Shown: positions 4,144-26,257 of the stretch, in pieces | How the letters are laid out: each line of letters opens with the position of its first letter | Numbering within the stretch: position 1 is the first letter of the stretch | Origin: Flavobacteriaceae bacterium | GTDB lineage: Bacteria > Bacteroidota > Bacteroidia > Flavobacteriales > Weeksellaceae | Direction: 5' to 3' | DNA length: 33,743 nt | Assembly (NCBI GenBank): GCA_031273305.1 | Contig: JAISSC010000202.1 | Coordinates: forward strand, 1 to 33,743 | The notes under the pieces: model-generated | What the model was told of the DNA's origin: nothing | Database searches by the model: none | Seen by the model: the letters and a program-made list of their open reading frames with translations, nothing else | Program-made: the position numbers and the translations under genes

Positions 4144-5400
4144 ATGAAAACCACTACATTATTTTATTTTGTATTTATATTTTGTTCAATTCAGGCACAG
4201 GTTAATTGGGTAAAACACGGACAAAATCCGGTGTTAGTTCCTTCTAATAATCTGTATGAGCAATATATAGGAGGACCAAGTGTCATAAAAGATGAAGGAG
4301 TGTTTAAAATGTACTATGCTTCAACCGGATTGGATAAAAAGGGGAGAATAATGATGGCTACTTCTACGGATGGAGTGAATTGGGATAAAAAGGCTCAGCC
4401 TGTTTTAGATGTAAATCCCGTTGCAGGCTCGTGGGATGGTTTTTTTCTGGATTGTCCGGAGGTGATTAAAGACAATACAGGTTATAAAATGTATTATTTT
4501 GCACAACCGGGTGATGATCCCTTACAAAGTGCTATCGGATTAGCAACTTCTACTGATGGAATTAATTGGGTAAGACATCCTTCAAATCCTGTTTTGGTTT
4601 CCGGAGAAAATCCTGATGATATAGATTATTATTATATCGAATCTCCGGCTGTCACATATATGGATGGTAAATATTACATGTCGTATACGGCAGTGGATGC
4701 TTTATATTTAACCAGAACAGCTTTAGCTTTTTCTGATGATGGGATCAATTGGCAGAAGCATTCCGATAATCCGATATTTGATATTTATAAAGACCCTGAT
4801 GCCTCTAATTTATACATATGGGATGGTGGAGCCTCAAGAATGCCTACCATGCTGTCAAGAAATGAAAAGCTCGAAGTTTGGTATACCGGTATTTCAGTTT
4901 ATAATAGGTATTATCTCGATGAAACGGCATTACATATAGGTTATGCACATTCTCCGGATAAAGGAGCAACATGGATTAAATATAATAATAACCCGGTTTT
5001 GAGTACAACCTCTCCTCCTTTTACCGAATTTGAAACAAGAGGACCTGTAGCCTCCGACGTAATTTATGATGAAGATGATAAAATATATAAAATGTGGTAT
5101 GAAACAAAATATGGTTTTGGAATGGCTATCGGTATAGATGAAGCCTTACAATCGGAGGCTTATCTTACGGATGATTTACAAATATCTGTTTATCCTAATC
5201 CGGTCGAGGGAGCTTTTTTTATAAATTTAAATAATTCCCTTACCGATTATAATATCCGTATAACAGATATTTACGGCAACATTCTTTTAAGAGAAAAGAA
5301 TAAGAATTATATAGATATTTCGGGGTATGAATCAGGAGTATATATAGTAACGATAGAAACAGGAAGTAAAGAAACATCGGTTAAGATTATAAAGAAGTAA
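4144..5400 (+). CDS. T9SS-secreted five-bladed propeller glycosidase-like protein
   Basis: The 418-residue protein begins with a signal peptide (MKTTTLFYFVFIFCSIQAQ, cleaved near 19). The body (20 to about 340) has a motif repeated about five times: Asn/Thr-Trp, two or three residues, His or other polar residue, then NPVL or a variant (NWVKHGQNPVL, NWVRHPSNPVL, NWQKHSDNPIF, TWIKYNNNPVL), with KMYY-type strands between. This is the five-bladed propeller pattern of the GH43/GH32/GH130-like glycosidases. Acidic residues in blades (for example DCPEV near 103 and ESPAV) could be catalytic, but I cannot assign a GH family or substrate. The C-terminal 75 residues start at SVYPNPVEG and end in a basic stretch: a type A T9SS sorting domain, implying secretion and cell-surface attachment. 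It appears monocistronic. Confidence 0.8.
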   Translation: MKTTTLFYFVFIFCSIQAQVNWVKHGQNPVLVPSNNLYEQYIGGPSVIKDEGVFKMYYASTGLDKKGRIMMATSTDGVNWDKKAQPVLDVNPVAGSWDGFFLDCPEVIKDNTGYKMYYFAQPGDDPLQSAIGLATSTDGINWVRHPSNPVLVSGENPDDIDYYYIESPAVTYMDGKYYMSYTAVDALYLTRTALAFSDDGINWQKHSDNPIFDIYKDPDASNLYIWDGGASRMPTMLSRNEKLEVWYTGISVYNRYYLDETALHIGYAHSPDKGATWIKYNNNPVLSTTSPPFTEFETRGPVASDVIYDEDDKIYKMWYETKYGFGMAIGIDEALQSEAYLTDDLQISVYPNPVEGAFFINLNNSLTDYNIRITDIYGNILLREKNKNYIDISGYESGVYIVTIETGSKETSVKIIKK

Positions 5401-5524: not shown

Positions 5525-5908
5525 TTATACCACAGAAACAGGTCTCTTATTTTCATCGATCGCCACGAAGGTAAATTCTCCGTTTACGGCTTTTTCGCGT
5601 TTATCCGAGTACATCTGTTCTATAAAAATCTCCACATTTACCTTTAAACTAGTATTGCCTATATAGGTTACTCTGCCTATGAGTTCCACGATAGTTCCTC
5701 CGGGTATGGGTTTCTTAAAATCAATCCTGTCGCTGCTTACCGTTACTACCTGTTTATGACAAAAACGGGTGGCAGTGATAAAAGCGACCTCATCCATCCA
5801 CTGCATGGATTGTCCCCCGAATAAGGTGTCATAATGATTAGTTGTATTAGGAAATACAGCTTTAAAGATTCTGGATTCAGAATTTTTCTTTCGTTCTTCT
5901 ACGGTCAT
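5525..5908 (-). CDS. Hotdog-fold acyl-CoA thioesterase
   Basis: The 127-residue protein has the compact length of a single hotdog domain. The active-site region NHYDTLFGGQSMQWMDEVAF (24-43) matches the N-x-x-D-x-x-F/L-G-G-x-x-M-x-x-M-D motif of YciA/ACOT-type acyl-CoA hydrolases, with Asp27 and the helix holding MDE. Known relatives release CoA from fatty acyl-CoA in the cytoplasm; chain-length preference cannot be read from sequence. The gene is single, with a strong terminator behind it and its ATG followed by a charged helix (TVEERKKNSES). The name YciA would be reasonable but paralogues exist, so no symbol is given. Confidence 0.88.
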   Translation of the reverse strand: MTVEERKKNSESRIFKAVFPNTTNHYDTLFGGQSMQWMDEVAFITATRFCHKQVVTVSSDRIDFKKPIPGGTIVELIGRVTYIGNTSLKVNVEIFIEQMYSDKREKAVNGEFTFVAIDENKRPVSVV

Positions 5909-5961: not shown

Positions 5962-5996
5962 CAAAAATTGAGGTGCCTAATTTCTTAGGCAACCTC
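5962..5996 (-). terminator. Intrinsic terminator of the cobalamin-riboswitch operon
   Basis: GAGGTGCCTAA (5970-5980) pairs with TTAGGCAACCTC (5985-5996) with one bulged base and a 4-base loop. On the minus strand a T-rich run (AATTTTTG) follows. It lies about 30 bp after the stop of the last gene of the five-gene operon. Confidence 0.8.
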
Positions 5997-6026
5997 CTTT
6001 TAAGTGTTAATTGTGAAAGTAATGGG

Positions 6027-8312
6027 TTATCTTTTTATAATCTTATACGTCTTATTGTCGACTTTTATTATATAAATTCCTGAATTAAGATTAGGTACAT
6101 TTATCCGGTTCTTTCCGTTGCTTAGAGCCTGTTCGTGTACTTTGGCTCCGGTTACGGAATAAATAGATAAAGTACTTGCCTTATCCGCTTCAACAAAGAA
6201 ATATTCAGTAAATGGATTAGGATATAGTTGCAGAGACAAGGTAGTTTTTATATCGTCTGTTCCCATTAGAGAGGTCACATTTACCGTAAGTTCATGTTTA
6301 ACGATCTTACCGTTGGAATTAAAAATAATTTCAAGAATGGCAGTTCCGACCTTTACTGGGGTTATAACCAACCGGTCTTGTTCATCAATTACCGCACTAA
6401 TAACTCCGTCATTATCAGTTTCCTTAAGACTTTTTACAATTGCCAATGCAAAGTTATCATCATCGGTTACTTTGTCTTTAAGGTCAATATCGGTTACAGA
6501 ATTAATATCTATGGAAGAAGCTAATTTGGTAGAAGCTGTTTCGGATAATTTAGGCGTGGAATTATCCGGGAAAACAGGCAAAGCAGTGAACCAGTAATAA
6601 TCGTTTAATTGATAAGTATTAGATAAAACTCCCTCGTTGGTTACAATATGAACCCAGTTTTTCTGATAATGAGAGCCGTATCCGTTTTCTGTTGTGGTAA
6701 TTACCAGATTATCAGTTACCGGGTCTATTCGCAAACCGGCTCCGTAAAAGACCTGATTGTAGGAGCCTTCCTGTCCGGGAATTTGATAAAAGGATGTATT
6801 TAAAGTATCGGTATCAATATCATATTTGATTACGGTGTTTCCACCACCTATAAATCCGCCACCGCTAGTCCAATAGAGCACGTTGTTTTGTGTACTTGAA
6901 CAGAATCCTCCGGCATTCCATGCTCCCCATGAGCCTGAAATGGAAGCAGATACTGTTATTTCTTCTGTCTCTAAAGTTAGAGGATTGACCTTTATCAATT
7001 TGCTGCCGGCTCCAATCCATACGTTTCCGTCTTTGGACTGGGTGATGGTGTTAACAGATGTATTGGCTATGGTTTGTATTATTGTATGGGATATAGGGTC
7101 AATAACAAAAACGCCCGTACTTTGTTTTGTGGCAAAAACATATTTGGAAGTACGGATCATATTCCCGATTTGGTAGTTATTTCCTCCGGTTCCTTCAATA
7201 AGATTTCCGACCGTAAGGTTTTTAATGTCGAACAAGTAAATTCCTTTGGAAGTTCCTATATATCCGGTATTTTCATCCACTCCGATGAAAGTTCTTCCAT
7301 CGCCTCCGCCTATGTCGTCAAATGAGGCTTTCTTTTTTAAGGTTTTTGCATCCGCTATTACCAGTCTTCCTCCTTTTTTAGCTTCAGTTCCTTTCTGTTT
7401 GGATACCAGATAAAAATTGTCTCCGTAAATGGTGCCATATTGAGTAGTAACCCCAAGAGTATGTCCGTCATTTTCCTTTCTGTAAGCATTATAAATAAAA
7501 TCTCCATTCTCGGTTAAGAAATTAACGGAACCATCGGCATGTCCAAACCAGTCTTCATTAACAAAGAAAATTCCCTTAGTATAATCATATTCAGTTTCCT
7601 GATAAGTAGAAACGCCCGTAAAGGTTTCGCTTAATGGTTGGGAGACAAGTCCGGGGGCAAAAGACCAAGCATCCCAAGAGCCATCTTTCAATTTTCGACT
7701 GGAGGCTCCCAAGCCGGAATATCCAAAACTACCTCCTTCTTCTTTAACCCAATAAGACCAGTATGCTGAGTTCCACCCTGATTGCCAATGGTCGTTAGTG
7801 TCGGAGCTTGTCCAATTATCAAAATTATAGGAGTAAGTAGCCACTATTCCATCGACAGGATAGTCAGGATACGTAGTGTCTCCGCTCAAAATAAGGGCTA
7901 TGGTATTTTTCTGATCCAAATCAAATCCAAATCCTCCTATGGCACTTCCAAGACCGGCTCCGGTATAATATTCTAAAATGTAAAAACGAGGGTCTGCTTT
8001 GGCAATAGCATTTATCATATCGATTCCGTAAGCATCTCCGTCCCATTTATATCCCCATACCAGAGCATCTTGGGTTTTTCCGTCATTCCATTGAACCACT
8101 AAAGCGGCTTTGTTACTTCCTTCTCCTACCCAATATTCAATATCATCGAAAGAGAAAGTCTCATCTGCCGCAGATTTTAACTTTTTGGCAGATTTTAAGG
8201 TTCCTGTTTGTTCCTGATTCAGGTCATTTCTCGGAAATCCCTGAATACTGATTTGCGCTGTTATTCCCCACGATAAAAGCAGGGAAATGAACAATAAATA
8301 AACTTTTTTCAT
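6027..8312 (-). CDS. T9SS-secreted YncE-like propeller protein in a B12-regulated operon
   Basis: The 761-residue protein is the last gene of the riboswitch-controlled operon. It has a signal peptide (1-20, ending GITAQ) and no lipobox. Residues about 50-230 form a domain opening with DDIEYWVGEGSNKAALVVQW and containing GFGFDLD; I recall this pattern from Bacteroidota cell-surface proteins but know no assigned function. Residues about 235-590 are a YncE/DUF5074-like beta-propeller (repeated strands such as GRLVIADAKTL and VFVIDPISHTI), related to the two lipoproteins encoded upstream. A beta-sandwich-like region follows (about 605-685). The last 70 residues (LQLYPNPFTEY to KIIKR) are a type A T9SS sorting signal. 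I infer a secreted or surface-anchored corrinoid-binding protein; this is not shown by sequence. It begins 28 bp after the PKD lipoprotein gene. Confidence 0.78.
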   Translation of the reverse strand: MKKVYLLFISLLLSWGITAQISIQGFPRNDLNQEQTGTLKSAKKLKSAADETFSFDDIEYWVGEGSNKAALVVQWNDGKTQDALVWGYKWDGDAYGIDMINAIAKADPRFYILEYYTGAGLGSAIGGFGFDLDQKNTIALILSGDTTYPDYPVDGIVATYSYNFDNWTSSDTNDHWQSGWNSAYWSYWVKEEGGSFGYSGLGASSRKLKDGSWDAWSFAPGLVSQPLSETFTGVSTYQETEYDYTKGIFFVNEDWFGHADGSVNFLTENGDFIYNAYRKENDGHTLGVTTQYGTIYGDNFYLVSKQKGTEAKKGGRLVIADAKTLKKKASFDDIGGGDGRTFIGVDENTGYIGTSKGIYLFDIKNLTVGNLIEGTGGNNYQIGNMIRTSKYVFATKQSTGVFVIDPISHTIIQTIANTSVNTITQSKDGNVWIGAGSKLIKVNPLTLETEEITVSASISGSWGAWNAGGFCSSTQNNVLYWTSGGGFIGGGNTVIKYDIDTDTLNTSFYQIPGQEGSYNQVFYGAGLRIDPVTDNLVITTTENGYGSHYQKNWVHIVTNEGVLSNTYQLNDYYWFTALPVFPDNSTPKLSETASTKLASSIDINSVTDIDLKDKVTDDDNFALAIVKSLKETDNDGVISAVIDEQDRLVITPVKVGTAILEIIFNSNGKIVKHELTVNVTSLMGTDDIKTTLSLQLYPNPFTEYFFVEADKASTLSIYSVTGAKVHEQALSNGKNRINVPNLNSGIYIIKVDNKTYKIIKR

Positions 8313-8340
8313 GCTATGTTGATTTTAAATTTATGTGTTA

Positions 8341-9561
8341 TCAATTTATTATATGCAGGTCATAGCCTCCATTTACTTCGGTGGAAACCTCACCCAGCCA
8401 TCCTGCTTCCTGATTAGTTCCTGTATAAACTTTGACGAAATCTATCCCCGCAAGTTTTACAGGAGTTCCGTTTTTATCTACTGCCCAGCTAATGTCTATA
8501 TTGGAGGCTTCATCATTATTCGGGGCGTTATCTGCATATCCGTATTCGTAGGATTTTCCTGTCCAGTAAGTGCCGTTGCCGCTTTGGTCTATATAATTAT
8601 CTGCCAGTTTTGTGCCTGTGAAGCTCAAAGTGGGAGAGGAGACCCATTCAGGATAATAACTTTGCTTATGGTATGAATTTTTGGTTTTATAACCGGTATT
8701 TCCCTGATTGTCCGTCCATCTTATATATTGAATGTCGGTTTGCCACCCCTCTGCTCCCGGCACAGGAGTAGCGTTCGGGTCGGGTTTGTGATAAATAAGT
8801 TCATAGTTTTTAATGGTTTCGCTTTTGTGATACTCGCTTCCGGCTATTTCATACCATTCGTCATCCGGGATACCATTTTTGTTTTTATCATAAGAAACCA
8901 GAATAATTCCCGGTTCGCAATTACCTGCTTTTTGACCGGGCGTGGCGTCAGCCCAAAAAGCATTCCCGCGTATTTTAAAATCTCTTTCTCCCTGTATGTT
9001 GATAATGCTATGGTCAAATCCGAAAACGACATATCCGCCGTATCCTCCCAAACTTATCGTTCCGGGAGATGAACCTGTGATAACGCTTGCTTTGGCAATC
9101 ATACTTTCCCGCGTATCGCCCTCTGCCCATTTTGGCAGATCATTCGTAAACTGTCCGATGGCAGGGAGAAAATCGTATACCTTCGCTATGTAAGGGCTAT
9201 AAGAACCGGTTTCTTTTTCTACGGTGATGTAGGTTTGTTTCTCGATGGTTTCCCCTCCGTTTTTGACTTTTAAGGTTACCGAATAGGTTCCCGAATATAG
9301 TGAGATAAAGGAGAAATCCTTGCCTGTGGATGTAAGCGAATCTTCTTGTGTAGTCTTGCTTTTTATCGTCCATTCAAATTCGGCATTTGGGTAGGAAACC
9401 GTGTTAAGGTCAATATCCAGAATACGCAGGCGATCAACGGTATACTCTGATTTTAATCCGAGATCTTCCGGAGTTTGGGTTACATTGTCGTCATCGTCTG
9501 AACAGGAAGCTAAGAATAGCAAGCCTGTCAGGCTCCATGTTAGAATTAGTACTTTTTTCAT
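8341..9561 (-). CDS. PKD-domain surface lipoprotein in a B12-regulated operon
   Basis: I place the start at the second in-frame ATG (MKKVLILTW), because this gives a standard lipoprotein signal; an ATG seven codons upstream (9582) is possible. The lipobox is LASC with Cys20, followed by SDDDD, the surface-export signal type of Bacteroidota lipoproteins. Residues about 35-115 look like a PKD/Ig-like strand domain (FEWTIKSK, GTYSVTLKVKNGG). The rest is a separate domain with DKNKNGIPDDEWYEIAGSEY, whose DxNxNGxxDD core looks like a calcium loop, and several Trp- and Tyr-rich strands. The same kind of protein is often seen near B12 receptors in Bacteroides, but its exact role is unknown to me. 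It is the fourth gene of the operon and probably a surface accessory for corrinoid capture. Confidence 0.8.
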   Translation of the reverse strand: MKKVLILTWSLTGLLFLASCSDDDDNVTQTPEDLGLKSEYTVDRLRILDIDLNTVSYPNAEFEWTIKSKTTQEDSLTSTGKDFSFISLYSGTYSVTLKVKNGGETIEKQTYITVEKETGSYSPYIAKVYDFLPAIGQFTNDLPKWAEGDTRESMIAKASVITGSSPGTISLGGYGGYVVFGFDHSIINIQGERDFKIRGNAFWADATPGQKAGNCEPGIILVSYDKNKNGIPDDEWYEIAGSEYHKSETIKNYELIYHKPDPNATPVPGAEGWQTDIQYIRWTDNQGNTGYKTKNSYHKQSYYPEWVSSPTLSFTGTKLADNYIDQSGNGTYWTGKSYEYGYADNAPNNDEASNIDISWAVDKNGTPVKLAGIDFVKVYTGTNQEAGWLGEVSTEVNGGYDLHIIN

Positions 9562-9604
9562 TTCTATTAAATTTAAATTCATGTATATTTATTTTTAGTT
9601 TGTT

Positions 9605-10744
9605 CTATTTCCACAGGAAAGTAAAATGTCCGGGAATGTCTCCGGTGGTTGCTTTCCATTTAAAATATCCGTCTTTGTCGAAACAGTGTAATCTTCCGGA
9701 GGTTACATAATTGGTTGCATCGGCAATAAAAATGTCTCCGTTCACAGGGTTGACGGTAATGGCATAAGGAATTACAATGTCTTTTTCAATACCGTTCTTA
9801 ATAAATTGGTCGGAAACTACTTCCTGATCGTTTATATCAATAATGCCGTAATGGGTAGTTGCTCCCTGTGCAGTCCATGCATAGCCGTAATAATACATTT
9901 TATCGTCAAAAAAACTCATATCGGAAACAACGGCATTTACCTCTTTTTCAACCGTATCGGTATCCGGGTTCAGGATAAAGGTTCTGGGCGGGTTCTTTCC
10001 ATAATCTCCTCGTGAGGTCACCCACAGCTTGTTATTTTTATCTTTTCGTATCCTCCACAGGTTGATGGCTACCTCAATTTTTTTAATCTCTTTAAAGGTA
10101 TTCAGGTCAATTACCGAAACTGTGTTATCGTAATTTGGAACCCGATAACCTCCGGAGTTGGCAACATAGAGCTTGTTATTGGCAACAACCAGTTCATCCG
10201 GTTGATAACCTACCACTTCCTTGTTTACGATTTGCAGGGTTGCCGTGTCGACTTTTACTACATATCCCGGAGGGGCATTAGGGTCAATCGAGACAGGTCC
10301 GGCATAAGAGGTAACATAGGCGTAGCCTTTATCAAATGCGATATACCGACAATTGGGGATTTGAATTTCACCTAAATGTTTGGCTGTTTTGGCATCCATT
10401 ACTTCAATGTAGTTGGATACATTGATAACCGCATACATCTTAGAGCCATAGATTTGAATGTCATTACCCACATCACCGAGACTATAAGTCACGGTAGAGT
10501 TAACTTTTGAGTAAATATTGTTGGAGAATACCCCTGTGGAATAATCAAAATAATCCAGAGAGGCTTTATTGCTTCCCATATTCCCCTCATTGAGAACATA
10601 TAGCCCCTGTATGTCTATGTTTTCCGGCGAAGTAATTGTTTCTTCGGGAGAATAGGTTGAAGGGAGGGAATCATCCTCGTTGCATGAGAGCATAAAAATG
10701 GCTATAAAAACCGGAAATACCAGTTTTTTTATCGTATTTTTCAT
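9605..10744 (-). CDS. BtuG-like beta-propeller surface lipoprotein, copy 2
   Basis: The 379-residue protein has a lipoprotein signal ending MLSC (Cys21) followed by NEDD, a surface-export type signal. The mature part is a YncE/DUF5074-type seven-bladed propeller: repeated blocks such as IEVMDAKTAKHLGEIQIPNC, YVVKVDTATLQIV and VSVIDLNTFKEIKKIEV. In Bacteroides, BtuG has this fold, is lipidated on the cell surface and binds cobalamin extremely tightly on top of BtuB. The gene lies 15 bp from a close paralogue and two genes from a BtuB-like receptor, all behind a cobalamin riboswitch, which makes a BtuG role likely. The propeller fold alone would not be specific. Both copies end in PGHFTFL. Confidence 0.82.
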   Translation of the reverse strand: MKNTIKKLVFPVFIAIFMLSCNEDDSLPSTYSPEETITSPENIDIQGLYVLNEGNMGSNKASLDYFDYSTGVFSNNIYSKVNSTVTYSLGDVGNDIQIYGSKMYAVINVSNYIEVMDAKTAKHLGEIQIPNCRYIAFDKGYAYVTSYAGPVSIDPNAPPGYVVKVDTATLQIVNKEVVGYQPDELVVANNKLYVANSGGYRVPNYDNTVSVIDLNTFKEIKKIEVAINLWRIRKDKNNKLWVTSRGDYGKNPPRTFILNPDTDTVEKEVNAVVSDMSFFDDKMYYYGYAWTAQGATTHYGIIDINDQEVVSDQFIKNGIEKDIVIPYAITVNPVNGDIFIADATNYVTSGRLHCFDKDGYFKWKATTGDIPGHFTFLWK

Positions 10745-10759
10745 GGTTAATATGTTAAG

Positions 10760-11884
10760 TTATTTCTTTGTCAGAAAGGTAAAATGACCGGGCGATACTC
10801 CGGCGTTCCTTACCCATTTTAAAATTCCGTTTTTGTTTATACAAAATATTTTTCCGGATATTTGGTAATCTCTTGCGTCGGCAATAAAAATGTCTCCGTT
10901 GTCGGGATTGATAATTATTCCGTATGGTACCACAATTTGGGATTCCGTATTCTCATTCATAATATGTGACGAAATCTTGTTTTGGGTATTAATGTCTATT
11001 ATCCCATAGCTGTTAACCGTTTTGTTGGCACTGTCGTAATCGGTTCCATAATAATATAGGTTATTTTCATAAAAGTCAAACCCGGTGATTGTGGCTGTGA
11101 TGGTTTTTATGACAGTATCCGTATTGGGATCAATAATGGATATGAAAGGTTTTATGTCGTTATAATTTCCTCTTGAGGTTACCCAGATATTGTTGTTCTT
11201 ATCGGCTTTTATCTTCCATAAGTTAGCCCCGACATCTATTTTTTTGACTTCCTGAAAGGAAGATAAATCTATAACAGATACGGTTGTGTCATAACTTTCG
11301 GGAGTGTATCCTCCGGAATTGGCAACATAAAGTTTATCATTAACTACGGTCATTTCTTCGGGTTGATACCCTACGGATACATTATTTACAATGGATAAAT
11401 TGGTTGTATCAATTTTAACAATAGTTCCCAACTGCGAATTGTTGGATTGCGGAGTGCCTGCAAAAGAGGAAACATAGGCATAACCTTTGTCAAAGGTAAC
11501 AGACCTGCAATTCGGAATCTGGATTTTTCCTAAATGTTTGGCTGTTTTGGCTTCCATTACCTCTACGTAATTGGAATTATTAATAACGGCATACATTTTG
11601 GAGCCGTAGATATTAATATCGTTCCCGACATCTCCCAGCACTCCCTCATTAGGGTTTACCCATCCGAAATAGTCATTCGTGTAGTTTCCGCTGTCATAGT
11701 CGTAATAAGTAAGTGAGGCTTCATTGCGCCCCCAGCCTCCCTCGCTAAGAATATATAATCCTCTGGAAGCTCCGGGTTCGGGGGTGATGATGTCATCTCC
11801 GGAGTTTTCATACTTGTCGTCATCGCTACAGGATAGCAACCCAAGTAAGATAAAATAAATAAATAAAAAATTTCTTAATCTCAT
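10760..11884 (-). CDS. BtuG-like beta-propeller surface lipoprotein, copy 1
   Basis: The 374-residue protein follows the receptor gene by 19 bp. Its signal ends GLLSC (Cys19), then SDDDKYE, a surface-lipoprotein signal. The propeller is clearly a tandem duplicate of the next gene: both contain LGDVGNDI.IYGSKMYAVIN, AKTAKHLG.IQIPNCR, FDKGYAYV and ..NGDIFIADA. The copies differ most in the N-terminal blade and the loops. In the established BtuBG system, one propeller lipoprotein caps the receptor and hands B12 to it. Two copies here may bind different corrinoids or sit at different stages of transfer; that is inference. There is no frameshift or missing blade. Confidence 0.84.
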   Translation of the reverse strand: MRLRNFLFIYFILLGLLSCSDDDKYENSGDDIITPEPGASRGLYILSEGGWGRNEASLTYYDYDSGNYTNDYFGWVNPNEGVLGDVGNDINIYGSKMYAVINNSNYVEVMEAKTAKHLGKIQIPNCRSVTFDKGYAYVSSFAGTPQSNNSQLGTIVKIDTTNLSIVNNVSVGYQPEEMTVVNDKLYVANSGGYTPESYDTTVSVIDLSSFQEVKKIDVGANLWKIKADKNNNIWVTSRGNYNDIKPFISIIDPNTDTVIKTITATITGFDFYENNLYYYGTDYDSANKTVNSYGIIDINTQNKISSHIMNENTESQIVVPYGIIINPDNGDIFIADARDYQISGKIFCINKNGILKWVRNAGVSPGHFTFLTKK

Positions 11885-11903
11885 AATTAATAATTTGTGT
11901 TCG

Positions 11904-13937
11904 TTATATGTTCATTTGTACTGAAATTCTGTAATTCCGTCCGGGCATAGGATAATTCAATACTATATCATAGTTCCGGTTAAGAATATTATTGACCTCT
12001 AAAGCAACTTTTAATTTTAGTTTATCCAGAGGTATTTCTTTAGATATAAGCAAATCATGGCTAAACCATGCTTTTACATAATTATTCGGGCTGTTCTCAG
12101 GCGAATTATATCGTTCTCCGGTATAGATAAAGCTATAATTCAGATTCCAGTCTTTGTATGCCGTGTTGATGAGAAAACTACCGCTGTGCCACGGAATATA
12201 GGGAATCTGGTCTTTGTATTCCATAGTTAAATTTTGAGCTTTTTCATATGTATAAGAAAGCCTTGTGTTGAGCGAAAGGTTTTTGGAAAGAGACCATGAA
12301 GACCGTGCGGAAACATCAATCCCTCTGATAAGTACTTCTCCCATGTTTATCATAGTCCAGCGGAATTGTTGCCCTTTGGGATACGCAATGATCTTATCTT
12401 TCACCTCGTTGTAATAAGCATCAAGCACCAGATTGATATTCCTCAATGATCCGGATTTAAAATCTTTGTTATATTCAATTCCTATATCGTATTGAGCCGT
12501 GTATTCAGGTTTTAAAAGAGAGTTGCCCAAGTCTGTATAATACAGGTCATTAAAGGTAGGCATACGGAAAATACGTTTATAAAAGGCATGTATATTAAGT
12601 TCTCTGTTTTTGAAAAGTTCGTAATTTAAGAAAACGGTAGGGGTAAATTCTTGTTTATCAGGAGACGGAGCCGCACGTTCGTCATTTTTAACATCTTCCT
12701 GAACGAAGGTTCCTAAAATACTGGTTTGAAATTTGAACCTGTTAAAACGAATATTGGAAGCTAGTGCGACCAATTCCGTATTCCTTTCGGGATAAACAAA
12801 AAGTTTTAAATTGGCATCCATAGTGTTGTACTGATAGTCTGCGGAAAGTGCAATATCCCAAAAGGAGAACAGTGAGTATTGCTGGGCGGTGGAAATATAA
12901 AATTCTTCCTGTTTAAAGGTGTTATCCAGAAAATCCGACTGCACGAGAGAGCCTTGTATGTAGTCAAGGACAAGACGGTAAAAATGGGTATAGTCGTTGG
13001 CATATTTGGCATTGACCAAAATTTTATATTTGTGTGTTATCTCTTTTTCAAATGAACCTTGAAGGAAGAAATTACGATCCCATTGTTTGGAACTACTATT
13101 AAACACATTTTTGACAATAGCTCCCGGAATTCCCCGCTCGGAATCATAATAATATCCTTTTAAATTCCAGGTTCCTTTGTTGAGTTTCCCAAACAACCCG
13201 ACCTCTACACGGAAAGCACTGATATTCCCGTTTTGCCTGATTCCAATAGTATCCCAATGGTCTTTTCTATGTCGGAATTTGTATTTTCCGTTAGAGTTTA
13301 TGTATTCTGTATTTAGGGAAAGGTTAATGTTTTCGGAAAGTTTCTGTTCCCATAAAACCGACGGATTTATCAGGGCAAAGGAACCGGAACGGTAGTTTGC
13401 ACTAAGATTTGTTCTTTTATCGTTTTCAAATTTCGGTTTTTTAGTAGTCATATAAATGCTTCCGGCAGAACCAAAGTCTTTAGCGGATTGAAATATCTGG
13501 CTTTTTTGTCCGTTATATAAAGAAACGGACTCCATATTGTCCAGAGAAAATTTACCCAGATCAACGGTTCCGTTCTGGGCATTTCCCAACTGTATCCCAT
13601 CGTAAAAAACGCCTACGTGCTGACTTCCCATTCCCCGAATATTTACGGTTTTCATTCCTCCGACTCCTCCATAATCCTTTAGTTGTATTCCCGAAAAATA
13701 ACGTAGGGCATCTGATACCGACGAAGCACCGGTTAGGTTTTGCAGTTCTTTTCCTGAAAGTTCCTGATATGAAATGATACCTTTGTTCTCCCTCTTTCCG
13801 ATAGTAATGATCTCCTGAAGTTCGGTAATTTTAGTGCTGTCCTTTCGTTCTTTTTGTTCTTGTGAAAAAAGAATGAGAGTGAGAATACTAAAAATCTGGG
13901 TTAGTAAAAGTTTGATATTTTTATGTTTGTGTATCAT
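11904..13937 (-). CDS. btuB: BtuB-like TonB-dependent cobalamin receptor
   Basis: This 677-residue outer-membrane receptor has a signal peptide (about 1-26) and a short N-terminus with the TonB-box-like ITELQEIITIGKR (38-49). The plug domain spans about 52-167 with VNIRGMGSQHVGVFYDGIQL as the core, and the remainder is a 22-strand barrel (alternating aromatic strands such as NLNYSFIYTGERYN near the end). It lacks the N-terminal carboxypeptidase-like extension of SusC proteins. The substrate is inferred from position: it is the first gene after the cobalamin riboswitch and is followed by BtuG-like lipoproteins. The 677-residue length fits BtuB of Bacteroidota. The C-terminal residue is Ile rather than the more common Phe. 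The inner-membrane transporter BtuCDF is not in this window. Confidence 0.88.
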   Translation of the reverse strand: MIHKHKNIKLLLTQIFSILTLILFSQEQKERKDSTKITELQEIITIGKRENKGIISYQELSGKELQNLTGASSVSDALRYFSGIQLKDYGGVGGMKTVNIRGMGSQHVGVFYDGIQLGNAQNGTVDLGKFSLDNMESVSLYNGQKSQIFQSAKDFGSAGSIYMTTKKPKFENDKRTNLSANYRSGSFALINPSVLWEQKLSENINLSLNTEYINSNGKYKFRHRKDHWDTIGIRQNGNISAFRVEVGLFGKLNKGTWNLKGYYYDSERGIPGAIVKNVFNSSSKQWDRNFFLQGSFEKEITHKYKILVNAKYANDYTHFYRLVLDYIQGSLVQSDFLDNTFKQEEFYISTAQQYSLFSFWDIALSADYQYNTMDANLKLFVYPERNTELVALASNIRFNRFKFQTSILGTFVQEDVKNDERAAPSPDKQEFTPTVFLNYELFKNRELNIHAFYKRIFRMPTFNDLYYTDLGNSLLKPEYTAQYDIGIEYNKDFKSGSLRNINLVLDAYYNEVKDKIIAYPKGQQFRWTMINMGEVLIRGIDVSARSSWSLSKNLSLNTRLSYTYEKAQNLTMEYKDQIPYIPWHSGSFLINTAYKDWNLNYSFIYTGERYNSPENSPNNYVKAWFSHDLLISKEIPLDKLKLKVALEVNNILNRNYDIVLNYPMPGRNYRISVQMNI

Positions 13938-14063
13938 TTTCGCTCATTAATTATATTTAAAACATAATTAATCGCTTCATGAAAAATAAACATGAAAAGT
14001 AGAGATGAAATACTTTTGATGTTTTTAGCCTTGTTCCACGAAAGCTATTAACTATGTAATAAT

Positions 14064-14294
14064 GTTTGGCAGGTTTTCTGACTTACTCCATTTTAAGAAG
14101 CCTTCCCAAGAATATTTCTCAGTGGCAGTTAAATCTTAAAATGCTGTTATGAGATTACAGCAGCGGGCCTGTTCCGGATTCTCACCGGATTCCCTTTTAA
14201 ATTTGCAATTTTTTTAGTTAATGAATCAGCATAGATAAAAAACAGTAACTATTTAGCTCATTCATTATTCACTATAAATTGCAAATACCAAAGC
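14064..14294 (-). ncRNA. Cobalamin riboswitch
   Basis: Read on the minus strand, all main conserved blocks are present in order: AAAGGGAATCCGGTGAGAAT, then CAGGCCCGCTGCTGTAA, then GCCACTG, GGGAAGGC and the 3' block AGTCAGAAAACCTGCC. Pairing supports the fold. P1 can form from TTTGG (14292-14288) with CCAAA (14069-14065). An 11-bp stem joins 14276-14286 with 14201-14211, and a nested 7-bp stem joins 14260-14266 with 14220-14226. It lies in the leader of the btuB-like operon, 127 bp before the start codon. Adenosyl- versus hydroxo/methylcobalamin class cannot be decided here. No intrinsic terminator is visible between the aptamer and the gene, so control of translation is more likely. Confidence 0.95.
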
Positions 14295-14299
14295 AAAGG

Positions 14300-14330
14300 C
14301 AAATATAGAAATTAAATTTACTTTTCCAAA
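14300..14330 (-). promoter_or_regulatory. Promoter of the cobalamin operon
   Basis: On the minus strand a TTTG (14330-14327), a 19-base spacer and TATATTTG (14307-14300) match the Bacteroidota -33/-7 consensus. The expected transcript start, a few bases downstream, falls at the first base of the riboswitch P1 stem, which supports both calls. Confidence 0.8.
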
Positions 14331-14369: not shown

Positions 14370-14729
14370 ATGAATATTCAACTTCCGGAAAAATTATATT
14401 ATTCGATTGGAGAGGTGGCACAGGCTTTTAATGTAAATGCTTCTCTTATAAGGTTCTGGGAGAAAGAATTTGATAGTATTGCTCCTAAGAAGAATAAAAA
14501 AGGCGACCGTTTTTTCACTTCAAAAGATATAGAAAACCTGAAAATTATTTACCATTTGGTGAAGGAAAGAGGGTATACGTTGGACGGAGCAAGGAGTGTA
14601 CTGGTTACTCAACCCAAAATTTCAAAAAGAATAGAGATTATTTCACGTTTGGAATTGGTAAAGGCAGAGTTAGTAAAATTAAAGGAATTGCTTGATGGGG
14701 AAGAAAATAATTTGCATAACGAAATTTAA
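14370..14729 (+). CDS. MerR family transcriptional regulator
   Basis: The 119-residue protein has an N-terminal winged helix-turn-helix of the MerR type: YYSIGEVAQAFNVNASLIRFWE (9-30) followed by the wing with DRFFTSKDIENLKIIYHLV (about 46-64). A short coiled-coil tail (about 90-117) follows and there is no metal- or drug-binding domain, as in the small MerR proteins common in Flavobacteriia. The gene diverges from the cobalamin operon, with the operon promoter in between, but nothing shows that it controls that operon. TAGATTTG at 14358-14365 resembles a -7 box and would give an almost leaderless mRNA. The small acidic gene follows after 39 bp. Confidence 0.88.
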   Translation: MNIQLPEKLYYSIGEVAQAFNVNASLIRFWEKEFDSIAPKKNKKGDRFFTSKDIENLKIIYHLVKERGYTLDGARSVLVTQPKISKRIEIISRLELVKAELVKLKELLDGEENNLHNEI

Positions 14730-25876: not shown

Positions 25877-25949
25877 GACTTGGTAGCTCAGTTGGTAGAG
25901 CACAACACTTTTAATGTTGGGGTCCTGGGTTCGAGCCCCAGCCAAGTCA
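25877..25949 (+). tRNA. tRNA-Lys (UUU), copy 1
   Basis: The 73-base cloverleaf has acceptor arms GACTTGG and CCAAGTC with discriminator A, D-arm with GTTGGTAGAGC, anticodon stem CAACA/TGTTG with loop CTTTTAA (anticodon TTT at 25910-25912), and T-loop GTTCGAG. The CCA end is not encoded (CAC follows the acceptor stem). Confidence 0.96.
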
Positions 25950-25984
25950 CTTTAGATAAAAAAACGTAATCGAGGTTAAAGAAA

Positions 25985-26032
25985 GATTTGGTAGAGCAAC
26001 TGACTCTTAATCAGTGGGTCTTTTCGGAGTCA
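25985..26032 (+). pseudogene. Deleted tRNA-Lys(CUU) remnant
   Basis: From 25988 the sequence matches the tRNA-Lys(CUU) at 26182-26254: TTGGTAGAGCAACTGACTCT through GTGGGTC, then skips the T-arm and resumes at TTCGGAGTCA. The 5' acceptor arm and most of the D-arm are also missing, so it cannot fold. The flanking spacers on both sides are near-identical (25950-25984 and 26033-26066), showing tandem duplication followed by deletion. Confidence 0.85.
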
Positions 26033-26066
26033 CTTTAGATAAAAAACATAATCGAGGTTAAAGAAA

Positions 26067-26139
26067 GACCTGGTAGCTCAGTTGGTAGAGCACAACACTT
26101 TTAATGTTGGGGTCCTGGGTTCGAGCCCCAGCCAGGTCA
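26067..26139 (+). tRNA. tRNA-Lys (UUU), copy 2
   Basis: Identical to copy 1 except for one base pair in the acceptor stem: GACCTGG with CCAGGTC in place of GACTTGG with CCAAGTC. The pair change is compensatory, so both copies look functional. The anticodon TTT is at 26100-26102. Confidence 0.96.
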
Positions 26140-26181
26140 CAAAGAGTTGCTTGAGTGTAATCTCAGGCTTTTCTTGTTTTA

Positions 26182-26254
26182 GGCTCCGTAGCTCAGTTGG
26201 TAGAGCAACTGACTCTTAATCAGTGGGTCAAGGGTTCGACCCCCTTCGGAGTCA
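26182..26254 (+). tRNA. tRNA-Lys (CUU)
   Basis: The 73-base cloverleaf has acceptor GGCTCCG/CGGAGTC (one G-T pair), anticodon loop CTCTTAA with anticodon CTT at 26215-26217, and T-arm AGGGTTCGACCCCCT. Discriminator A; CCA is not encoded. Confidence 0.95.
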
Positions 26255-26257
26255 CTA

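Follow-up and report, generated by a model that had tools for sequence, protein, structure and literature searches.

The five-gene unit that follows a cobalamin riboswitch in this flavobacterial DNA raises the question of what each product would do with B12, and in particular what the last two genes contribute. A sequence-only reading of the window (the whole stretch of 33,743 nt that was analysed) had placed a single riboswitch-controlled operon at 5962–14330, with a BtuB-like receptor and two BtuG-like propellers as the products of genes 1–3 and no known cobalamin role for genes 4 and 5. The coordinates proved exact and every element was found, all on the minus strand, in the order promoter motif, riboswitch, hairpin with U-run, five open reading frames and terminator-like stem-loop.

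Genes 1–3 and the control region

The features are as follows.

14300..14330, minus strand: Bacteroidota-type promoter motif (TTTG-N19-TAnnTTTG), 52 nt upstream of the aptamer
14051..14248, minus strand: cobalamin riboswitch aptamer RF00174, full length (1–189), 93.2 bits, E 3.9e-22
13970..14025, minus strand: between the aptamer and btuB, a hairpin (stacked helices, 6 + 7 bp) then a U-run, fold z −2.85
11904..13937, minus strand: gene 1, btuB, TonB-dependent B12 receptor (B. theta BtuB1, 8blw_A, E 1.1e-130)
10760..11884, minus strand: gene 2, btuG copy a, seven-bladed BtuG-like propeller lipoprotein (DUF5074, 40 bits; lipobox LLSC-SDDD)
9605..10744, minus strand: gene 3, btuG copy b, BtuG-like propeller lipoprotein (8blw_B, E 3.2e-45; lipobox MLSC-NEDD)
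8341..9582, minus strand: gene 4, PKD + BtuH lipoprotein, BtuH domain at residues 126–412 (8347–9207)
6027..8312, minus strand: gene 5, T9SS-exported fusion protein of 761 residues (predicted transcobalamin-type domain, BtuK-like propeller, beta-rich linker, sorting domain)
7599..8252, minus strand: N-terminal domain of gene 5 (N-domain), residues 21–238, predicted transcobalamin-like beta-grasp
6567..7583, minus strand: DUF5074 propeller of gene 5, BtuK1-like, residues 244–582 (PF16819, E 3.8e-113)
6033..6227, minus strand: T9SS type A C-terminal sorting domain of gene 5 (PF18962, 47.7 bits; TIGR04183, 44.4 bits; both above cut-off)
about 5962..6000, minus strand: terminator-like stem-loop with U6 at the operon end, fold z −5.14

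The aptamer scores well above the RF00174 gathering score of 31.5, and it is the only cobalamin riboswitch found in the source assembly (2.1 Mb, 84% complete; as the genome is incomplete, other loci may be missing). The promoter motif occurs four times in the window against 0.34 matches expected from shuffled sequence. The hairpin and U-run that follow the aptamer are a probable expression platform acting by transcription termination, and successive genes are separated by 19, 15, 22 and 28 nt, so that promoter, riboswitch, gene spacing and terminator bear out the proposal of one unit, which would be repressed by B12.

The family assignments suggested for genes 1–3 hold. The best solved relative of gene 1 is B. 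theta BtuB1, with E. coli BtuB far behind, and its match to TIGR01779 (E 3e-34) lies below the cut-off of that model. Structure-derived sequences matched by gene 3 are BtuG1, BtuG3 and BtuG2. In both btuG copies acidic residues directly follow the lipobox, as they do in the signal for export reported from BtuG (PMC6143338). The locus has the make-up of a BtuBG locus, with a TonB-dependent BtuB adjoining a BtuG propeller lipoprotein across the 19-nt gap and a cobalamin riboswitch upstream; from their sequences the products of genes 2 and 3 would be expected to bind B12. The tandem btuG genes were considered as a recent duplication, an idea ruled out by the finding of two copies in the same order in another species of the genus (G006) and by a tree in which copy a clusters with other members of the genus (support 99/99). 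Because the pair is shared in this way we regard the two as old paralogues; btuG is single copy in the other genera examined.

Genes 4 and 5 as probable B12-binding proteins

Genes 4 and 5 had been left without a known cobalamin role, and for both this has to be revised. The PKD domain reported for gene 4 is present, but the main domain of the protein, which had been overlooked, is BtuH (8blw_B H-domain, E 2.8e-72; 7biz, E 1.5e-44), so that the PKD protein is not a new component. BtuH is a B12-binding class published in 2022, with PKD-bearing forms among its members, and its B12 contacts in BtuH2 are Q333, N399, F401, H476, Y510, W511, W577 and L578 (PMC8941943). All eight are identical in gene 4 (Q144, N207, F209, H305, Y339, W340, W395 and L396), the 7biz residue numbers being assigned from the printed alignment with gene 4. 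Judged by its sequence gene 4 is a new BtuH member, homologous to 7biz, and would bind B12.

Gene 5 carries the features of a T9SS type A cargo: a signal peptide (judged by eye), the sorting domain detected by two models and a T9SS in the genome, where a fragment of the component SprA was found. The suggestion that the operon uses two export routes, type IX secretion beside lipid anchoring, is thereby upheld; T9SS-type tails had already been noted in 2025 on B12-binding DUF4465 proteins (PMC12751083). The propeller has as its best structural match 9s6c (Z 33.2 over 314 residues), titled in the PDB 'B12 Binding protein - BtuK1', which leads narrowly over BtuG entries (Z 30–31), with unrelated propellers no higher than about 26. 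By sequence BtuK1 alone was matched (E 7e-16) and BtuG was not. In the published test BtuK1 bound cobalamin, whereas its close relative BtuK2 failed to bind (PMC12751083). It follows by analogy that binding of B12 by the gene 5 propeller is likely, not certain.

The order riboswitch, btuB, btuG, btuH and T9SS protein is complete in nine loci of the named collection (Empedobacter, two; Chryseobacterium, three; Weeksella, Epilithonimonas, Flavobacterium and another member of the Weeksellaceae). Thus the gene order, with one btuG, does recur behind cobalamin riboswitches, as the earlier reading had proposed checking, and its spread across genera indicates that the operon is widespread in these families and not peculiar to the source genome. 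In a related operon a T9SS protein (L111:1392–2378) looked BtuH-like by eye, and BLASTP gave no match.

As the closest solved relatives of the products are B12 proteins (BtuB1, BtuG, BtuH and BtuK1), the case for a B12 capture operon is strengthened, and we consider it very probable that the five genes form a cobalamin-repressed unit for surface capture and import in which gene 5 is a candidate two-site B12 trap. The second of these sites would lie in the N-domain. The suggestion that the operon may hold new corrinoid-binding components is supported, the new candidate lying there, in a part to which the earlier reading had not turned.

The N-terminal domain of gene 5

The N-domain gave no match by sequence in Pfam, NCBIfam or the PDB. 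As the propeller filled the list in a fold search with the whole protein, the N-domain was modelled alone, together with 11 relatives (pLDDT 78.7, pTM 0.79; of the five models, two scored a pLDDT of about 55). The predicted topology is hairpin, helix, hairpin and then a strand pair (E47-55, E62-70, H76-86, E90-96, E103-110, E163-170, E192-200), in other words a beta-grasp core whose helix is followed by an inserted beta-hairpin. The beta-domain of rat transcobalamin has been described with the same layout (PMC11107200), and the inserted hairpin defines the transcobalamin-like clade (PMC1796856). The sequence pattern had suggested a resemblance to transcobalamin ahead of the fold result, so that the fold search served as a test of it. 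When the model was compared with the PDB, ranks 1–14 were all beta-domains of intrinsic factor, transcobalamin or haptocorrin (Z 8.6–10.0 over 101–108 residues, rmsd 2.7–3.0, sequence identity to transcobalamins 7–13%). Rank 15 was the Ruminococcus protein 3u7z (Z 8.1), which we take to be a member of the DUF4430 family, and the next match, the first unrelated one, had Z 5.8. Foldseek alone placed the same entries first, weakly (best E 0.02). On the strength of the model the N-domain is predicted to be of the transcobalamin/intrinsic factor C-terminal type, ubiquitin-like (beta-grasp), and may bind B12. Assignment to DUF4430 (PF14478) by sequence was ruled out, as no member of sets A2 and A5 had such a Pfam match, and for this reason we name the domain by its fold; DUF4430 was also absent from 99 sampled Bacteroidota genomes. 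DUF4465/BtuJ was ruled out in the same way by Pfam, and there were no BtuJ entries among the structure matches, which alone proves nothing.

A profile search found the N-domain in 47 of 395 Flavobacteriales genomes. It is either fused to a propeller or stands alone in a T9SS protein, whose length is about 370 residues when the domain is in two copies and 235 residues when it is single; fused and stand-alone forms are homologous (hhalign probability 99.3). In two Bacteroidales (L014, L067) it is a separate lipoprotein within a btuB operon. No viral contig scanned carried it, and a tblastn search of plasmids gave nothing usable. A cobalamin riboswitch lies upstream on the same strand of the stand-alone gene in all 20 newly fetched loci, and in 19 the gene starts 25–116 nt past the aptamer, btuB intervening in the twentieth. 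These 20 are all the stand-alone matches not previously in hand, less one marginal partial match (G140, E 3e-4); three further loci (L010, L013, L068) were excluded from the count because a contig end truncates them upstream. Two others (L058, L066) likewise have the stand-alone form behind a cobalamin riboswitch. For the fused form, the riboswitch precedes btuB in every scanned locus with enough upstream sequence, with one case directly before btuH. As genomes of the genus hold one to four such riboswitches each, the linkage is not a matter of chance. The transcobalamin-like clade was recorded in 2007 from animals, low-GC Gram-positives, planctomycetes and euryarchaea, Bacteroidota not being listed (PMC1796856), and we found no report in the open-access literature of its presence in Bacteroidota or of a tie to Btu operons. 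From these observations we would give an even chance to the view that Bacteroidota possess a large family of secreted B12-binding domains of the transcobalamin/intrinsic factor fold, occurring singly, in tandem, lipid-anchored or fused to propellers, under cobalamin riboswitches of their own, with the tandem and fused forms clamping one corrinoid between two domains as a bacterial counterpart of the animal two-domain carriers.

Three other explanations were weighed. The operon might be an ordinary BtuBGH/BtuK operon with an N-domain that binds no ligand of this kind, serving as a spacer, an interface for surface proteins or a glycan or metal binder, co-regulated only through its fusion to the propeller. 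Beta-grasp domains have many roles, and the N-domain appears dispensable, since one homologue of gene 5 (G001:C110) lacks exactly this part (residues 1–49 then 238–761 kept, 69% identical) and propeller proteins of two further genomes (G006, G013) are also without it. Against this, the folds closest to it are precisely those beta-grasp members that bind cobalamin. A spacer would also have no need to occur free of any propeller, yet the N-domain does so, coming first after a cobalamin riboswitch of its own in 19 of the 20 loci, and it is found as a lipoprotein in the Bacteroidales btuB operons; we therefore think this explanation unlikely. Somewhat less probable still is that the proteins capture other corrinoids (incomplete corrinoids or other cobamides) and that cobalamin is the regulatory signal only. 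BtuG2 and the transcobalamin beta-domain do bind cobinamide besides cobalamin (PMC10404256, PMC5599065), and the contacts made by BtuG avoid the lower ligand, but the aptamer is of the cobalamin class and the source genome has a frame of 897 residues with a PF02310 B12-binding domain, probably MetH, the cobalamin-dependent methionine synthase. This explanation overlaps the main one and does not exclude it. Lastly, control of btuB alone by the riboswitch, with internal promoters driving the later genes, is very improbable: an internal promoter is active in B. theta operon 1 (PMC12751083) and sigma-70-like matches occur inside the present operon at chance level, but the gaps are of 15–28 nt, the motif TTTG-N17-21-TAnnTTTG was not found between the genes, and in another genome (L063) btuH and the T9SS gene follow the riboswitch immediately, without an intervening btuB.

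Proposed route of B12 and relation to known systems

If the preferred reading of a five-gene capture and import unit with a B12-binding N-domain is adopted, scarcity of B12 would allow the riboswitch to permit transcription, and all five proteins would be made. The PKD-BtuH lipoprotein would hold B12 at the cell surface and hand it to BtuBG, while the fifth protein, exported by the type IX system, would remain attached to the surface or be released as an extracellular trap, its two candidate corrinoid sites being the BtuK1-like propeller and the beta-grasp domain that precedes it. It counts against this reading that the beta-domain of transcobalamin, taken by itself, is a weaker binder than the protein with both domains, and that gene 5 lacks an alpha/alpha domain. 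Transcobalamin takes up its ligand first on the beta-domain, after which the second domain covers it (PMC11107200, PMC5599065); as a guess by analogy, the N-domain and propeller, or two tandem copies, may sandwich one corrinoid. Use of both sites and hand-over between the components would lead to the BtuG lids, which would take the B12, and to BtuB, which would import it across the outer membrane by the TonB-energized pedal-bin mechanism; beyond capture, the scheme is taken from B. theta studies (PMC10404256, PMC8941943). The onward path would run through a FecCD permease, which is present in the source genome, to the probable methionine synthase.

The operon type is known and is here extended to flavobacteria, with BtuH and BtuK-like proteins as added members and the N-domain as the surprise. 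It resembles Bacteroides BtuB1-BtuGH (BT1489-BT1490) in its riboswitch, TonB receptor (BtuB here being closest to BtuB1), propeller lid lipoprotein and BtuH domain, but it encodes BtuG and BtuH in separate genes, has two copies of btuG and includes a T9SS-exported protein besides. Gene 4 shares with BtuH2 (BT1956, 7biz) a lipoprotein form, PKD and a C-terminal B12-binding domain with the eight contact residues, but has one recognised PKD domain instead of three and comes from a flavobacterium, outside the panel of gut Bacteroidetes that was studied. BtuK1 (BT1486, 9s6c) is likewise a riboswitch-linked DUF5074 propeller; it is, however, a lipoprotein consisting of the propeller only, whereas the propeller of gene 5 is T9SS-exported and fused to the N-domain. 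With the transcobalamin-like clade (SLBB beta-grasp; DUF4430) the N-domain shares the predicted hairpin, helix, hairpin insert and sheet-completing hairpin, and its riboswitch context indicates the same ligand. It differs in the lack of recognisable sequence identity, in the long insert that separates its second hairpin from the last, in its fusion to a propeller and T9SS tail, and in belonging to a phylum not listed in the 2007 survey.

The B12-piracy toolkit of gut Bacteroides is in this way extended to environmental and host-associated flavobacteria, with a secreted component besides. Should the N-domain bind B12, the fold of the animal B12 carriers would also be widespread in Bacteroidota as a module for scavenging outside the cell, under direct control of the vitamin; this bears on the origin of the animal carriers, proposed in 2007 to have come by transfer from Gram-positives. 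The family would also be a source of small, easily made candidate B12-binding domains for testing. BtuJ/DUF4465 proteins too bind B12 outside the cell, are controlled by cobalamin riboswitches and in part are exported by T9SS, but they have a jelly-roll fold and unrelated sequence and there is none in the present operon. They do occur in the same genus: at locus L072 of a related genome (G005) the riboswitch is followed by a T9SS-exported DUF4465 protein and then BtuH, so that different B12-binding folds occupy the same place.

Occurrence of the N-domain in other proteins

A 1152-aa protein encoded within a btuG/btuH cluster at locus L013 (3452-6910) begins with the N-domain, the predicted transcobalamin-type beta-grasp of the fifth operon protein, and further contains an Ig domain as well as BspA-type leucine-rich repeats. 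A near relative of the fifth protein (L059:8277-9980) is without exactly this domain, corresponding to residues 1-49 fused to residues 238-761 in the numbering of the window protein.

Other riboswitch-linked loci

In G005, a genome of the window's genus, a cobalamin riboswitch is followed by genes for a T9SS-exported DUF4465 (BtuJ-type) protein and a PKD-BtuH lipoprotein (L072:2980-6447), an arrangement with the secreted DUF4465 B12 binder at the position of the window's T9SS protein. The unit in genome G262 (L063:6777-10798) is capture-only: the riboswitch leads directly into btuH and then the T9SS fusion gene, and btuB and btuG are absent there. L111 and L105 both encode proteins with two transcobalamin-type domains (the tandem T9SS form). 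The operon at L111 (362-5814) comprises a riboswitch, a TonB receptor, a tandem protein, an unassigned 328-aa T9SS protein and a DUF5074/BtuG-like protein; the Pfam matches of the 328-aa protein are to the sorting domain only, and it is a candidate further B12 binder. At L105 (2871-7238) there are two consecutive riboswitches, one preceding a tandem-domain T9SS protein and the other a BtuG-like T9SS-exported propeller and a second tandem-domain protein.

Flanking genes and other features of the window

14370-14729, divergent from the operon: MerR-type regulator gene
5525-5908, minus strand (that of the operon), immediately beyond the terminator: 4HBT thioesterase gene
4144-5400: T9SS-exported protein with matches to a GH32/GH130/GH43-type five-bladed propeller
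25877-26255: three consecutive tRNA-Lys genes (anticodons TTT, TTT and CTT)

Other species of the genus likewise have this same MerR-type regulator gene next to btuB (loci L060, L073 and L075).
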